Shown: positions 7,964 through 43,602 of the stretch, piece after piece
How positions within the stretch are numbered: position 1 is the stretch's first letter
Layout: each line of letters starts with the position of its first letter
NCBI GenBank assembly: GCA_944389515.1
Contig: CALXMQ010000003.1
Coordinates: 1-44,761, forward strand
From: an uncultured Alphaproteobacteria bacterium
GTDB taxonomy: Bacteria; Pseudomonadota; Alphaproteobacteria; Rs-D84
Length of the DNA stretch: 44,761 bases
Direction of reading: 5' to 3'
The notes under the pieces: generated by a model
The model's database searches: none
Told to the model about the DNA's origin: nothing
Seen by the model: the letters and a program-made list of their open reading frames with translations, nothing else
Translations under genes and position numbers: made by a program

Positions 7964-8392
7964 TTAATCAGATAAATTTCTGAATAATGCAGAACGCATA
8001 GATGCATTGTTATAAGTCATATATGCACAATCAGATGCGCAGTTATACATACACGCGTCAACATTTGAATATCCGGAAAAATACACCCATTGTGATACAG
8101 CCGGCGATATCATCCTGCAATAACAATTCACATTTCCGCTGGAATAAGATACTGTTGGAATATCTGATGATGTGGTACCCATTGATGTGCCACTGCGGCT
8201 GCTGCATGCGCTGATTCCTTGGACAGAAACAGTTCCGTCACATAATAACCCTCACTCTATTTTACCGCTTTGCGCTTTTTGTATAGTGCAACTGGACGAC
8301 GAATTCAAATCGACGCATTTTGTTACCGCCGCACATACCGGCGACACCACCAAGGCACCAGATAATCCCAGGATTAGTAAATGTTTTTTCAT
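7964..8392 (-). pseudogene. secreted WCxM-domain protein with in-frame TGA at a conserved Trp (locus 1)
   Basis: Starts at ATG 8392 after a strong AGGAGG. Codons 1-22 give signal peptide MKKHLLILGLSGALVVSPVCA, then 'AVTKCVDLNSSSSC', matching 'AVTKCVALNSSSTTC' of the 13337-13783 protein. Codon 47 is TGA (8252-8254 complement). Beyond it the same frame stays open to TAA and keeps the family features: GISACSS, CYCRMISPAVS, RSALFRNLSD. The paralogues have Trp (PEWDATC, VDWSVTC) where this gene has TGA (IE*GLLC), so one TGG-to-TGA change explains it. Could be a fresh nonsense mutation, a sequencing error or a readthrough site. TGA is used as a stop elsewhere here. Confidence 0.75.
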
Positions 8393-8430: not shown

Positions 8431-8513
8431 AAAAAACCACCGAATTTTCAGGTGGTTGGAGATTTTTTCCCTTTAAGAGGTTTCGACACCCCATCAACGG
8501 AATGCCCGTTGAC
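8431..8513 (-). ncRNA. Cys-rich-locus leader RNA, short copy D
   Basis: 5' leader of the locus 1 operon. Reading 5'-3': stem GUCAACGG with CCGUUGAU around loop GCAUU, then GGGG/CCUC around UGUCGAAA, then a short linker and the terminator ACCACC/GGUGGU with a T tract. It lacks the ~120-nt middle domain of the other three copies, so these three elements form the minimal shared core. The AGGAGG of the gene could pair with the CCUC segment. Not a class I recognise. Confidence 0.72.
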
Positions 8514-10271: not shown

Positions 10272-11264
10272 TTATCCCAGCATGGCGCGATGAACGCGTT
10301 CATATGTTTTTTCTGCAACGACACGTGCACGCGTGGCACCATCTGACAAAACAGAATCCAATTCAGACGTGTTTGCCATTAAACGTTCGTATTCTGCACG
10401 TGGGGCGGATAATACAGAATTTATTTTTTCAAATAATATCTTTTTGGCATCACCATATCCCATACCACCACGTTCAAATTGTGCCCGTAAATCTGCAATT
10501 TCATTTGCGTTGGCAAAATGTTTATATAATTGGAATATTGTGGATTCGTCTGGATTTTTAGGTTCTTGCGGTAATTTGCTGTCTGTGATAATACGCATAA
10601 TTTTCTTTTTTAATTCTGATTCAGGCGCAAACAACGGAATTACATTATCATACGATTTACTCATTTTCCGGCCATCCAGTCCTGGGATAATACCAGTATC
10701 TGCACCAATTATTGGTTCTGGCAGTTTGAACGTTTCACCATATGTATGATTAAAATATCCGGCAATATCACGCGCAAATTCAACATGCTGTTTCTGGTCG
10801 GCACCCACTGGAACAACATCTGTATCATACAGCAGTATATCCGCCGCCATCAATATCGGATATGTGTACAACCCCATATTTACCCCAGCATCAGGGTCAG
10901 CCCCAGCAGCATCATTTTTTTCAACGGCGGCCTTGTACGAATGGGCACGATTCATTAAACCTTTTGGGGTGACGTTCATCAACATCGTAGATAATTGTGA
11001 AACCTGGACAATATCGGATTGGCGGAACAATACCGCATTATTCAAATCCAGCCCCAATGCCAATAATATCGCCGCAATTTCGTAAGTATGCTGTTTAATC
11101 AATTTTGGGTCATGTATAATATTTAACGCATGCAAATCAGCAATAAAAACAAATGTTTTATTCGTTTTTGCCATTTCAACCAATGGTTTTAATGCCCCAA
11201 CATAATTTCCCATGTGTGGGGTACCAGTGGGCTTGATTCCAGTCAATACAATTTGCTGTGTCAT
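10272..11264 (-). CDS. trpS: tryptophanyl-tRNA synthetase
   Basis: 330 aa from ATG 11264 with AAGGA upstream; the longer open frame runs back into the rpsD region and is not coding there. Class I synthetase: 'GIKPTGTPHMGNYVGAL' carries the HIGH-type signature and 'DGRKMSKSYDN' the KMSKS loop. 'GADQKQHVEFARDIA' is typical of TrpRS. Length matches the bacterial family. Charges tRNA-Trp in the cytoplasm. An intrinsic terminator separates it from rpsD. Confidence 0.95.
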   Translation of the reverse strand: MTQQIVLTGIKPTGTPHMGNYVGALKPLVEMAKTNKTFVFIADLHALNIIHDPKLIKQHTYEIAAILLALGLDLNNAVLFRQSDIVQVSQLSTMLMNVTPKGLMNRAHSYKAAVEKNDAAGADPDAGVNMGLYTYPILMAADILLYDTDVVPVGADQKQHVEFARDIAGYFNHTYGETFKLPEPIIGADTGIIPGLDGRKMSKSYDNVIPLFAPESELKKKIMRIITDSKLPQEPKNPDESTIFQLYKHFANANEIADLRAQFERGGMGYGDAKKILFEKINSVLSAPRAEYERLMANTSELDSVLSDGATRARVVAEKTYERVHRAMLG

Positions 11265-13336: not shown

Positions 13337-13783
13337 TTAGTCGGAAAGAGAACCAAACATCCCACTCCGAAAGGACGCATATTCTTTAAGATAATCCGCA
13401 CAACCCTGCGCACAACCCCAGACGCAAGAATCAACCGAGCTGAACCTGGCGTAGAATACCCAGCGTGCCGACACGGCAGGACTTATCATTTTACACCAAC
13501 AGTATTTGTTAGCGCCACTTGTTGACGATGTGGCTAATTCCGTTGCTGTTTGTCCTATTGAACTGCCACTTTTACTGCTGCATACGCCTATGCCACTTAT
13601 CGGTGTGCTTACCCCATTTGTGGTGCACGTCGCATCCCATTCGGGGTGCCCTGTGTTTTGTGAAGCATCTGATGTACATGTCGTACTGCTGCTGTTCAAT
13701 GCGACGCATTTTGTTACAGCGTGGACGCTGGTGGTGGTTACAACGCAGAATATTGCGCCAGTAATGATGATTTTTAATTTCAT
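13337..13783 (-). CDS. secreted WCxM-domain Cys-rich protein (locus 2)
   Basis: 148 aa, AGGAG before ATG 13783. Signal peptide (MKLKIIITGAIFCVVTTTSVHA), then TKCVALNSSSTTC, PEWDATC (Trp49), GIGVCSS, the hallmark CWCKMISPAVS at 95-105 followed by WVFYARF, and a Cys cluster CVWGCAQGC. It ends SGMFGSLSD. It is the intact reference for a four-member family in this window (7964-8392, 20403-20930, and the C-terminal half of 20949-21653). The hydroxyl-rich middle (STSG) may be a linker. I recognise no named domain. Confidence 0.78.
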   Translation of the reverse strand: MKLKIIITGAIFCVVTTTSVHAVTKCVALNSSSTTCTSDASQNTGHPEWDATCTTNGVSTPISGIGVCSSKSGSSIGQTATELATSSTSGANKYCWCKMISPAVSARWVFYARFSSVDSCVWGCAQGCADYLKEYASFRSGMFGSLSD

Positions 13784-13811: not shown

Positions 13812-14013
13812 AAAACCACCAAAAAACTTGGTGGTCAGGAGGTTAGCAACAATCCTTAGAATTGTGTCGTGTATTGGATATTCCACGAACCCTCCTGACC
13901 CATGGTCAGGAGTTTTTATTTTACGTCGCATAAAAACAGCGCATACGCGCCAGTTTCTCCGTCCGACGCTAAGGCAGAGGTTGCTACACCCCATCGGTGG
14001 AACACCCACCGAC
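13812..14013 (-). ncRNA. Cys-rich-locus leader RNA, copy C
   Basis: About 200 nt. Hairpin 1: GUCGGUGG with CCACCGAU around GUGUU. Hairpin 2: GGGG/CCUC around UGUAGCAA. A CGUCG/CGACG stem encloses a GCGC/GCGC hairpin. Then ACUCCUG, GGUCAGGAGG, a UCGUG/CACGA hairpin, an ACAAUUC/GAUUGU hairpin, and CCUCCUGACC joined to the terminator CCACCAA/TTGGTGG. The gene's SD context is CAGGAG. Stems covary with the other copies. Confidence 0.8.
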
Positions 14014-34538: not shown

Positions 34539-34747
34539 GTTGATGGGTGTTCCATCAATGAGGCGTGGAAACCTCTGCATGTGCGTCGGAATATAAACCT
34601 GTGGCGCGCTGAAATGCGCCAATTTTAATATGACGGCGAAAAAAACTCCTGGCTTTTGGTCAGGAGGGTCGCGAAATATCAAATACGCGGCGCAATTCAC
34701 ATGATTGTTTCCAACCTCCTGACCACCTGAACTTTCTGGTGGTTTTT
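34539..34747 (+). ncRNA. Cys-rich-locus leader RNA, copy A
   Basis: About 209 nt. Hairpin 1: GUUGAUGG with CCAUCAAU around GUGUU. Hairpin 2: GAGG/CCUC around CGUGGAAA. Middle domain: CGUC..GACG enclosing a GGCGC/GCGCC hairpin. Then CUCCUG (34646-34651), GGUCAGGAGG (34658-34667), a UCGCG/CGCGG hairpin, a CAAU/AUUG hairpin, CCUCCUGACC (34715-34724), and the terminator CCACC/GGTGG plus five T. The SD of the gene reads TCAGGAG (34759-34765), also complementary to CUCCUGA. Confidence 0.82.
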
Positions 34748-34773
34748 AATTACAAAAATCAGGAGATGGAATT

Positions 34774-35646
34774 ATGAAACTTTTTTTACTTTTAGTTGTT
34801 TTACTGGTTACCCCCCAGATGTCATTTGCGGCAAGTGGCGAAGATGGCTCAGAAGATATTAACTGGGGTGAAATATCAAACTGTATTAGTGGATGTGTAC
34901 AATGTTTGGAATACAGAACGGCCGAATGTTGTGTCCGCTGTGGCGACAGTACGGGTGGTGGTGGGGGACATGGATACGCATGTACATCGTATAGCCAATG
35001 CCCCGATATATCTGGTCGCACGGAATATCAAGATACCGGCAGCGCCGCCACCGTCAGCGATATAGGTATCGCCAGTTCAACAAACGTTTGTTTTGATATA
35101 AATGGCGTACAATATTACAAAAAATCTGCAACATCATGCAGAACAAACTATTCCCGTGTAAAATTTGTAATCCATGGTTGCAGTGACATTGTATATTATC
35201 AATGCGTGTATAATTATACAGCACCCAACGAAGACGATGAATGCGATGAATCAACATGTATCCCAGACGCATGGTCATGGGTAACCAGTGGCAATAATGC
35301 TGTTCAGCGCCGCACAAGTCGTGGTTGTGGGGCAACTGGTAAATGTACCACAGTCATACCAGACCAAGTGCGTTGTCCAACAGGATATTACGGCACCCCA
35401 AATATAAATTTTCAAAACAACATCACTGCATATTGTACACCATGTCCATCGGATCCATCAGGCGCCCAAACAACGGCTGGCCCCGGCGATGTGGCAGACA
35501 ATGGTATCGGCATTGGTGGTGGAACAACAGGCAGAGTCAGCGTTACCGAATGTTATGTTCCGGCCGGCGTTGGCGGCAGCGACGAAACTGGCACATGGGT
35601 ATATGACAGGAATTGTCATTACAGTCAACAAGCAACGCAACTGTAA
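34774..35646 (+). CDS. large secreted Cys-rich protein (locus A)
   Basis: 290 aa. Signal peptide MKLFLLLVVLLVTPQMSFAA, then a Cys-rich chain with CVQCLEYRTAECCVRC near the N terminus, a Gly-rich linker, and a C-terminal domain 'RCPTGYYGTPN..YCTPCPS..ECYVPAGVGGSDETGTWVYDRNCHYSQQ'. The same C-terminal pattern (YYGxP, TxCP, CYxxxG, DxxGT[FW]V[YF]D, CxYS) ends the 42514-43365 protein, and a shorter version ends the CPSGY proteins. More than 20 cysteines suggest extensive disulfides. Expression is expected to pass through leader RNA A. Function unknown; adhesin- or surface-like by composition only. Confidence 0.78.
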   Translation: MKLFLLLVVLLVTPQMSFAASGEDGSEDINWGEISNCISGCVQCLEYRTAECCVRCGDSTGGGGGHGYACTSYSQCPDISGRTEYQDTGSAATVSDIGIASSTNVCFDINGVQYYKKSATSCRTNYSRVKFVIHGCSDIVYYQCVYNYTAPNEDDECDESTCIPDAWSWVTSGNNAVQRRTSRGCGATGKCTTVIPDQVRCPTGYYGTPNINFQNNITAYCTPCPSDPSGAQTTAGPGDVADNGIGIGGGTTGRVSVTECYVPAGVGGSDETGTWVYDRNCHYSQQATQL

Positions 35647-42513: not shown

Positions 42514-43365
42514 CTAGTTACTGTAATAACATCTGTTATTGTCTATATACGATGAACCTTGGCCATGGTCAAATACAAATGTGCCACTGGCGTCACTGCC
42601 GCCGGTTATGTAGCATCTGGTAATATCGGCATTCATACCGGCAACGGAATAACCACTGTCGGGGCATTTGGTGCATCCAGTGATGTTATTGCTGGGGCTG
42701 CCATAATAATTATTGGCACATCTGTATTGTGTTTTTTTAGTGCATATACATGTCAATGTATTGCACGTTGCTTCTATACGGCTTTCATATCCTGTTCCAG
42801 CCGCCGTCCAATCTGTATCAGAACAATTTGTGCATGTGCCGTTACATGTTTTTACACATGTTGTAAAAGTTAGTGTGTTTGTACACCCTGTAATACTGAC
42901 CGTTGATGTTTGTGTTTCATATCCACTTTGGCACGTGGCACAACTTTGCACCCCTTGGTCGCCTGATGGCGAATCCAAACAAGTTTCAGACGCATATGAT
43001 AAACAATTTAATCCCCGTCTAACAATATTTGCGCCAACACCACATGATTTTCTGCCACACGCTTGGCCAATATTGCCACCGCTGGTACATGTATAATATG
43101 TTACTGGGTCGTCGCACATATCAACTGTGACCGTTTTTGCAGTGCGCGTATAGCCCGAATTGCATGCCGAACATGAAATGACAGCCTGGTCATCATAACA
43201 CGTACGCGAACTGGACGAGCAATTAGTACCCTGGGCCACAACAGTGCCACCACTTTCACACACCCGGCCAAGACAACCCCCAATAGATAACGCAAATGAT
43301 TGTGTAATCGACGTTATTAAATAGGCCACAGATACAGCAGCCATAAAAAATATTTTTTGTTTCAT
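42514..43365 (-). CDS. large secreted Cys-rich protein (locus B)
   Basis: 283 aa; GGGGAT upstream of ATG 43365. A signal peptide (KIFFMAAVSVAYLITSITQSFA) precedes a chain with two related ~65-residue repeats: 'CSACNSGYTRTAKTVTVDMCDDPVTYYTC' and 'CATCQSGYETQTSTVSITGCTNTLTFTTC', each preceded by a GxxCGRxxC / RVCESGG segment. The C-terminal domain 'RCANNYYGSP..GCTKCPDSGY..RCYITGGSDASGTFVFDHG..RCYYSN' matches the locus A protein. Over 30 cysteines. Secreted, disulfide-rich; function unknown. It ends in TAG. Confidence 0.78.
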   Translation of the reverse strand: MKQKIFFMAAVSVAYLITSITQSFALSIGGCLGRVCESGGTVVAQGTNCSSSSRTCYDDQAVISCSACNSGYTRTAKTVTVDMCDDPVTYYTCTSGGNIGQACGRKSCGVGANIVRRGLNCLSYASETCLDSPSGDQGVQSCATCQSGYETQTSTVSITGCTNTLTFTTCVKTCNGTCTNCSDTDWTAAGTGYESRIEATCNTLTCICTKKTQYRCANNYYGSPSNNITGCTKCPDSGYSVAGMNADITRCYITGGSDASGTFVFDHGQGSSYIDNNRCYYSN

Positions 43366-43394: not shown

Positions 43395-43602
43395 AAAAAC
43401 CACCAAAATTTTGGTGGTCAGGAGGTTGAGAACAATCCAATGAATTGTGTCGTTTATTTTATATTCACGACCCTCCTGACCAAATGCCAGGAGTTTTTAT
43501 TTTTCGTCGTAATATTAAAACCGGCGCATATGTGCGCCACAGGTTTGTTTCCCGACGCATTGGAACGGGTTCTCACACCCCATCAGCAGAACACCTGCTG
43601 AC
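43395..43602 (-). ncRNA. Cys-rich-locus leader RNA, copy B
   Basis: About 208 nt. Hairpin 1: GUCAGCAG with CUGCUGAU around GUGUU. Hairpin 2: GGG/CCC around UGUGAGAA. Middle: CGUCG/CGACG enclosing AACC..GGUU and GGCGCA/UGCGCC. Then ACUCCUGGC, GGUCAGGAGG, GUCGU/ACGAC hairpin, ACAAU/AUUGU hairpin, CCUCCUGACC fused to terminator CCACCAAAA/TTTTGGTGG plus five T. Gene SD context is TCAGGGG. With its promoter this fills the 310 bp between the two flanking genes. Confidence 0.82.

Follow-up and report, generated by a model that had tools for sequence, protein, structure and literature searches.

The closest described systems to the leaders reported here include two RNAs that the papers searched treat separately. 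One, the antisense RNA C4, serves phage P1 in immunity. It is cut by RNase P and binds near a ribosome-binding site (PMC5320573), and the parts of its locus follow one another as a hairpin, a second hairpin with target element a1 in its loop, target element b1, a terminator-like hairpin, C4 itself and then a2 and b2, of which b2 lies at the Shine-Dalgarno sequence. The other, sRNA-Xcc1, is a real RNA of 88 nt in Xanthomonas (PMC2996969). No paper in the open-licence literature searched links sRNA-Xcc1 with C4 or describes leaders of the present kind in Candidatus Enterousia, the genus in which they were found; its members live in the gut and have some 820-1200 genes in genomes of about 0.75-1.0 Mb (PMC12306168).

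The window, by which we mean the whole analysed stretch of 44,761 nucleotides, had been described in a first-pass annotation as holding four structured leader RNAs, and all four were found where they had been placed, at 8431-8513 (-), 13812-14013 (-), 34539-34747 (+) and 43395-43602 (-); the observation of four structured leaders is confirmed. The three long copies (A, B and C) have the architecture that had been claimed for them: each opens about 7 nt past a TATAAT-like box with an 8-bp hairpin (P1), continues with a hairpin of 4 bp and an 8-nt loop, GGGG-UGUNNNAA-CCUC (P2), and ends in a terminator 10-30 nt 5' of a Shine-Dalgarno sequence and ATG. The promoter scan did not score the boxes; the transcription start was instead assigned on the sequence itself and on how constant it is between copies. 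Compared with dinucleotide shuffles, the long copies fold 6.4-7.4 standard deviations better and the short copy D at 8431 folds 3.7 standard deviations better, and the motif pattern, expected 0.02 times in the window by chance, occurs three times. The features, derived like all results here from sequence, are as follows, scores to R1 referring to a covariance model built from 58 leader copies of the genus only, whose E-values are rough.

34539-34747 (+): leader copy A, whole, from the predicted transcription start to the end of terminator T2; 218.2 bits to R1
34539-34559 (+): hairpin P1 of copy A, loop GUGUU; covariation
34560-34575 (+): hairpin P2 of copy A, target element a1 in the loop (paired bases 34567-34570); covariation, layout as in Rfam c4-a1b1
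34578-34583 (+): target element b1 of copy A, partner of the P7 loop; covariation
34602-34629 (+): internal terminator-like hairpin T1 of copy A (P4a and a U-rich tail); scan
34646-34653 (+): strand A of copy A, which pairs with B and so competes with C; alignment covariation
34658-34732 (+): C4-like domain of copy A; sRNA-Xcc1 match of 30.9 bits, below the gathering score
34658-34667 (+): strand B of copy A, GGUCAGGAGG; opens with GGU, a mark also of RNase P sites in C4 precursors (PMC5320573)
34668-34691 (+): hairpin P6 of copy A; covariation
34692-34708 (+): hairpin P7 of copy A, b' in the loop (34697-34703); covariation
34709-34724 (+): a' (34709-34712) and strand C (34715-34724, CCUCCUGACC) of copy A; covariation and own-versus-other test
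34722-34747 (+): terminator T2 of copy A, ACC common to T2 and strand C; sequence; the scan picked out this element in copies B and C as well
34760-34771 (+): Shine-Dalgarno region of copy A, CAGGAGAUGGAA, a2-like and complementary to a'-C; own-versus-other test
34774-35646 (+): gene under copy A, a 290-aa secreted Cys-rich protein of no Pfam family
13812-14013 (-): leader copy B; fold, R1 and terminator scan
13337-13783 (-): gene under copy B, a 148-aa secreted VTKC-type protein
43395-43602 (-): leader copy C; fold, R1 and terminator scan
42514-43365 (-): gene under copy C, a 283-aa secreted Cys-rich protein
8431-8513 (-): short copy D, consisting of P1, P2 and terminator only, with A and C fused and B, P6 and P7 lost
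8251-8391 (-): start of the gene under copy D, a VTKC-type frame with a stop after 46 codons and the remainder intact

Copy D lacks the A-C spacing, B, P6 and P7 when compared with L038:6739, and it looks like the product of a deletion between the CTCCAACCAC direct repeats of A and C in a copy of that type rather than a variant leader. Its gene carries a TGA stop where the paralogues have tryptophan, the frame being intact on to its normal end, and copy D with its interrupted gene looks like a decayed locus.

The claim that compensatory changes in the stems reflect an RNA structure was borne out on a much larger sample. Over 58 copies the proposed pairs were paired in 94.4% of cases, and the signal was also strong against a tree-based null on 136 copies. 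In a sequence-based alignment of the 58 copies, 43 of the 56 pairs had changes on both sides, and the proposed structure held 443 double-change cells, as against 123 after shuffling and 29-75 when it was slid by 1-3 columns. Our own script, written in the manner of R-scape and used with the tree-based null on the 136 copies, returned 17 significant pairs out of 19,701, of which 16 belong to the proposed structure (six in P1, four in a1-a', five in b1-b' and one in P6). The remaining pair (26-154, E 0.05) may reflect a tertiary contact. UGU or CGU in the P2 loop covaries with ACA or ACG before P7 (bases 26-28 and 152-154 of copy A; 34564-34566 and 34690-34692), a possible third tertiary contact. 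On the alignment, the RNA structure of the leaders is beyond doubt. Compensatory examples in P2 are GAGA/UCUC in L003 and GGGC/GCCC in L039:505-738; a long-range GGGG/CCUC pairing given by minimum free energy for copies A-C was set aside, since the local P2 hairpin covaries.

Two of the pairings reach across the leader. Element a1 in the P2 loop pairs with a', the strand between P7 and C (98.7% paired over the 58 copies), and b1, the strand after P2, pairs with b' in the P7 loop (98.9%). Strand B has two partners, either A just upstream or C just before the terminator, and the two pairings are mutually exclusive. The three strands vary jointly over some eight sequence types, for example CUCCUGA/UCAGGAGG/CCUCCUGA in one and CUCCAAC/GUUGGAGG/CCUCCAAC in another, and over these types 6.9 of the 7 A-B pairs and 9.4 of the 10 B-C pairs are kept; strand C, in turn, overlaps T2 by three bases. 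Such exclusive pairing, as predicted here, is the mark of a switch. Separately, an A-rich conserved run precedes strand A (34639-34667, at the same place in other copies), and there the A-B hairpin is terminator-like on the opposite strand.

The family to which these leaders belong was sought with Rfam. At the gathering score the window yielded two tRNAs and no match to a leader. The first-pass annotation had held that the leaders are not a known riboswitch class, and no riboswitch family of Rfam 15 matched copy A at E up to 10; they are not, however, an orphan class without relatives, and a strong match to an existing family was obtained for the 3' half only and in distant members only. In a permissive scan the 3' half of copy A (34658-34732) matched sRNA-Xcc1 with 30.9 bits and E 0.00096, the gathering score being 53. 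Scores to sRNA-Xcc1 within the genus run from 30.9 to 37.4 bits (the latter in L014), and three distant members reach 56.2 (L115, above gathering), 51.7 and 49.8 bits. For the 5' half, L106, also one of these three, matches c4-a1b1 exactly at P1 and P2, with 30.2 bits and E 5.7e-6, short of the gathering score of 46.7. In the reverse direction R1, although made from genus leaders only, picks up loci of sRNA-Xcc1 at 29.6 bits (E 3e-7) and, at E of about 1e-3, the a1/b1 leaders that lie upstream in C4 loci; phage P1 immI scores weakly with it (8.9 bits, E 0.44). The genome that holds the window has an additional sRNA-Xcc1-like match (G000:C4:35379-35469 (-), 38.2 bits) that is absent from the R1 list.

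The sRNA-Xcc1 family is in no Rfam clan, yet its loci from the phylum (L131-L160) are preceded by a1/b1 elements of the C4 type and, at the ribosome-binding site of the gene that follows, carry elements like a2/b2. In one of them (L146), CCGAAA and CAAACAG of the upstream part return as CCGAAAaggagCAAACAGccATG around the ribosome-binding site downstream. As positive controls, the Xcc1 and C4 loci gave own-specific complementarity both upstream and downstream (z -2.4 to -9.3). Among the marks of a C4 locus, the domain itself is present in our leaders, with B-C, P6, P7, a1-a' and b1-b' all covarying, as are the upstream a1/b1 leader with its two hairpins, sequence marks like those of RNase P sites (GG opens strand B, and GACCA follows strand C) and a counterpart of a2 at the ribosome-binding site, namely the match of a'-C to its own Shine-Dalgarno region. 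A C4-type b2 was present in the C4 and sRNA-Xcc1 control loci and was not detectable at the ribosome-binding sites of Enterousia (z -1.8 over all copies, -2.1 with one per family and -0.7 within families), and the leaders stand before chromosomal genes of other kinds, not before a phage antirepressor gene. The Rfam C4 model RF01695 matches 41 of 299 genomes in the phylum and 0 of 41 genomes of the order. From this pattern of matches and shared parts we conclude that the leaders, sRNA-Xcc1 and C4 probably form one superfamily; because RF01695 has no match in the order and b2 was not detectable, we have not filed the leaders under Rfam C4.

These relationships bear on the possibility that the leader is a metabolite or ion riboswitch, in which P1, P2, P6, P7 and the two pseudoknots would form the aptamer and A, B and C the expression platform. 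The position of the leader, its terminator and the mutually exclusive A-B and B-C pairing would suit such a device, as would the conservation of unpaired bases in the GUGUU loop of P1, the AAUA motifs of P6 and the AAUUC before b'. The supposed core elements a1, a', b1 and b' differ freely between copies, however, 20-60 copies stand before unrelated genes in about 1 Mb, tandem copies have their antisense codes in common and not the remainder, and the leaders are homologous to c4-a1b1 and sRNA-Xcc1. We consider a riboswitch improbable.

The four copies of the window are part of a much larger set: about 23 copies were found with R1 (E below 1e-4) in the genome to which it belongs, so that the original count holds for the window and not for the genome. 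Three close relatives of about 1 Mb have 35, 60 and 61 copies (E up to 1e-5). Searched as DNA, the leader turned up in 44 of 59 genomes belonging to the genus, and R1 has matches throughout most of the order (104 of 114 genomes, 15 of 18 genera), the compared genomes being mostly metagenome-assembled. Across the class 29 of 385 genomes matched at E up to 0.001, a number in which the weakest matches are partly not leaders (L125 lies on a tRNA-like stretch and L129 is a 45-nt match); outside the order, where the likeness is weaker, about 19 genomes, from some 15 alphaproteobacterial families, match at about E 1e-6 or better. An exact-pattern search of the window's own genome with three mismatches gave no match, the pattern being too strict. 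Two pattern matches in the genome collection from outside Alphaproteobacteria (L197 and L252) were ruled out as leaders by R1. Of two pattern matches in putatively viral contigs, only L299 is a leader by R1, and at this stringency there is no sign of wide phage carriage. That IMG/VR contig has a full leader (10374-10591 (-)) before a gene for a Cys-rich secreted protein.

Numerous dispersed and tandem copies could also be produced by a mobile repeat, MITE-like or attC-like, whose hairpins would serve mobility at the DNA level and whose position before genes would be incidental, and the association of sRNA-Xcc1 with integrons in Xanthomonas (PMC12444791) fits that picture. We regard it as very improbable, in that 135 of the 148 copies are oriented alike, behind a promoter-like box and with a start codon following at a short, fixed spacing (median 32 nt after T2), and that the copies, far from being near identical, are separated by compensatory changes. 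Flanking duplications were not noticed, although no systematic search was made.

The target genes code mostly for surface proteins. The downstream proteins have a secreted-like start in 120 of 135 cases by a crude pattern, and the two largest target groups are the Cys-rich and the VTKC-type proteins seen in the window, three of which gave no family in a Pfam search. The description of the leaders as standing before secreted Cys-rich protein genes thus applies to the genes of the window; the full range is wider and takes in an outer-membrane beta-barrel, Cro/C1-type regulators, sugar-transferase-like proteins and a hexapeptide transferase; beyond the order it includes a protein whose Mrr_cat match barely reaches the cut-off. 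An attenuator that uses cysteine codons in a leader peptide to regulate Cys-rich proteins finds some encouragement in an in-frame AUG with Cys codons in copy A, but on inspection the frame is not conserved in copies B, C or D, and the family also precedes genes without cysteine; the chance that the leaders work in this way seems to us close to negligible.

An indication of function comes from the complementarity between a'-C and the Shine-Dalgarno region. Over 135 copies with a start codon the predicted duplex energy, on which these own-versus-other tests rest, was -10.68 kcal/mol for a'-C with its own Shine-Dalgarno region and -9.58 kcal/mol with those of other copies (z -7.9). Taking a single copy from each gene family left a preference of z -3.6 (p 0.0002), and inside families it was z -4.9. 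Folding predictions for the readthrough mRNAs give the Shine-Dalgarno bases a pairing probability of 0.94-1.0 in copies A and B; for copy C the figure is only 0.3-0.8 and coverage is not predicted. The own-versus-other test and the predicted pairing in the readthrough mRNAs of A and B thus indicate that a'-C is able to mask the ribosome-binding site; on the same model, transcripts that terminate at T2 would not reach the gene.

Whether the pairing of a1 and b1 takes place within one molecule or between two is a question on which the tandem copies are informative. Tandem copies on the same strand each have a promoter-like box of their own and no ORF between them, and in about half of 17 pairs the a/b codes are common to both. 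Examples are given below.

L363 101-923: tandem leaders with their own TATAAT-like boxes, often the same a/b codes though the rest differs
L328 850-1291: the same
L332 835-1280: the same
L365 888-1293 (-): the same
L366 962-1358 (-): the same
L381 690-1126 and 5246-5693: the same

Cross-pairing between tandem copies averaged -5.57 kcal/mol for b, against a background of -3.12 (p 0.00005), and -4.14 kcal/mol for a, against -2.68 (p 0.00015), p-values that are somewhat too small because the set includes two orthologous pairs (L363 and L383) and one recent duplicate (L381). P1 identity, at 0.55, was the same in tandem as in random pairs. Codes shared by copies whose remainder has diverged favour trans action of the leader RNA, at least within arrays, as is known for P1 c4 RNA. 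Between non-adjacent loci code matches were not above chance (12 of 5110 within a genome and 26 of 7974 between genomes), and each locus has a private a/b code, common only to its tandem neighbour. Copies of one genome cross-paired no less strongly than copies of different genomes (p 0.94); selection for orthogonal codes is not indicated, nor is active avoidance. Divergent leader pairs about 60-120 nt apart were also seen (L232 1298-1860, L333 847-1362, L386 880-1294 and L068 1163-1660); their codes are not shared.

The same results have to be weighed against an attenuator acting in cis alone, with a protein or the ribosome as its sensor, in which the likeness to C4 would be inherited and no RNA would act in trans. 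Codes that are private to each locus outside tandem arrays, the ability of a'-C to cover the Shine-Dalgarno region in cis and the missing b2 all agree with this explanation. It accounts poorly for tandem copies that have common codes with a diverged P1, for gene-less copies that own a promoter-like box and a terminator, and for the precedents, P1 c4 RNA acting in trans and sRNA-Xcc1 being an RNA of 88 nt (PMC5320573, PMC2996969). We think it doubtful, though it deserves to be taken seriously.

The explanation that we prefer, and believe to be fairly likely, is that the leader is a self-targeting C4-like antisense module with a terminator that keeps its own gene low, so that each gene's own leader RNA probably switches that gene off. 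This preserves part of the first-pass interpretation, that of a structured, covarying leader with a terminator, and departs from it in giving the leader relatives (sRNA-Xcc1 and c4-a1b1) and a wider range of targets. Transcription would begin at P1. The 5' part would supply two target elements, a1 in the P2 loop and b1 directly after P2, and the 3' part would be a C4-like domain consisting of the closing stem B-C, P6 and P7, with b' in the P7 loop and a' beside strand C. Most transcripts, we infer, either end at T2 or undergo RNase P cleavage at strand B's GG, and the cleavage would free a C4-like RNA. The freed RNA, or the same strand in cis, may then pair with a1 and b1 of nascent leaders and with the ribosome-binding site and hold the gene low. 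With B-C formed, as in the C4 fold, strand C would be withheld from the Shine-Dalgarno region and T2 partly disrupted, and the gene would be read; with A-B formed, C would be free, T2 would form and the Shine-Dalgarno site would be covered. A private a/b code at each locus would make each control mainly itself; where gene-less copies stand in tandem and carry the neighbour's code, they probably act on that neighbour in trans.

A bolder version can be offered only tentatively, and we would sooner expect parts of it to fail than the whole to hold: that Candidatus Enterousia and its relatives have a genome-wide set of self-targeting antisense leaders at 20-60 loci, covering several per cent of genes, in which each gene is silenced by its own privately coded C4-like RNA, gene-less tandem copies serve as extra trans repressors and surface-protein genes are switched singly. 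If the present interpretation is right, then among the smallest gut genomes there are some whose most frequent leader has come to be an antisense RNA of the phage-immunity type, standing before several per cent of their genes. It would also mean that sRNA-Xcc1, an orphan Rfam family with proposed roles in virulence, joins the C4 superfamily and gains a direct target in the gene just downstream. The tandem copies with common codes are natural pairs for demonstrating trans action.

Among known systems, the C4 loci of phages P1 and P7 (RF01695; c4-2, RF02944), together with c4-a1b1 (RF03163), have their parts in the same order as the leaders. The parts in common are the first hairpin, the hairpin with a1 in its loop, the second target element, the terminator-like hairpin, the C4 domain and a target at the ribosome-binding site of the next gene. 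The domain in both has a closing stem and two hairpins; one antisense element occupies the last loop and another flanks the closing stem. That stem begins with GG on its 5' side in both, and the 3' end is ACCA-like, as at an RNase P site. Unlike C4, the leaders have a strong T2 after the domain, and they precede chromosomal genes for secreted and other proteins instead of phage antirepressor genes, in 20-60 copies per 1 Mb. With sRNA-Xcc1 (RF02221) the leaders share the closing stem, P6 with its AAUA...AAUA internal loop, P7, the a' strand and the preceding A strand, as well as a1/b1-like elements upstream and downstream target elements around the ribosome-binding site, whereas the sRNA-Xcc1 loci are without a clear T2; in the papers searched that RNA is described as an integron-encoded trans-acting sRNA upstream of symE (PMC12444791) and not as a relative of C4. 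The group 1 sRNAs of Acinetobacter baumannii, 21 C4-like RNAs in one genome (PMC5320573), are likewise multi-copy and chromosomal, have variable pairing elements and are apparently cut from longer transcripts at GGW (PMC5320573). Unlike the leaders, they match the Rfam C4 motif and have been called sRNAs, not leaders of identified genes, and they are present in fewer copies, in a genome several times larger, than the leaders of Enterousia.
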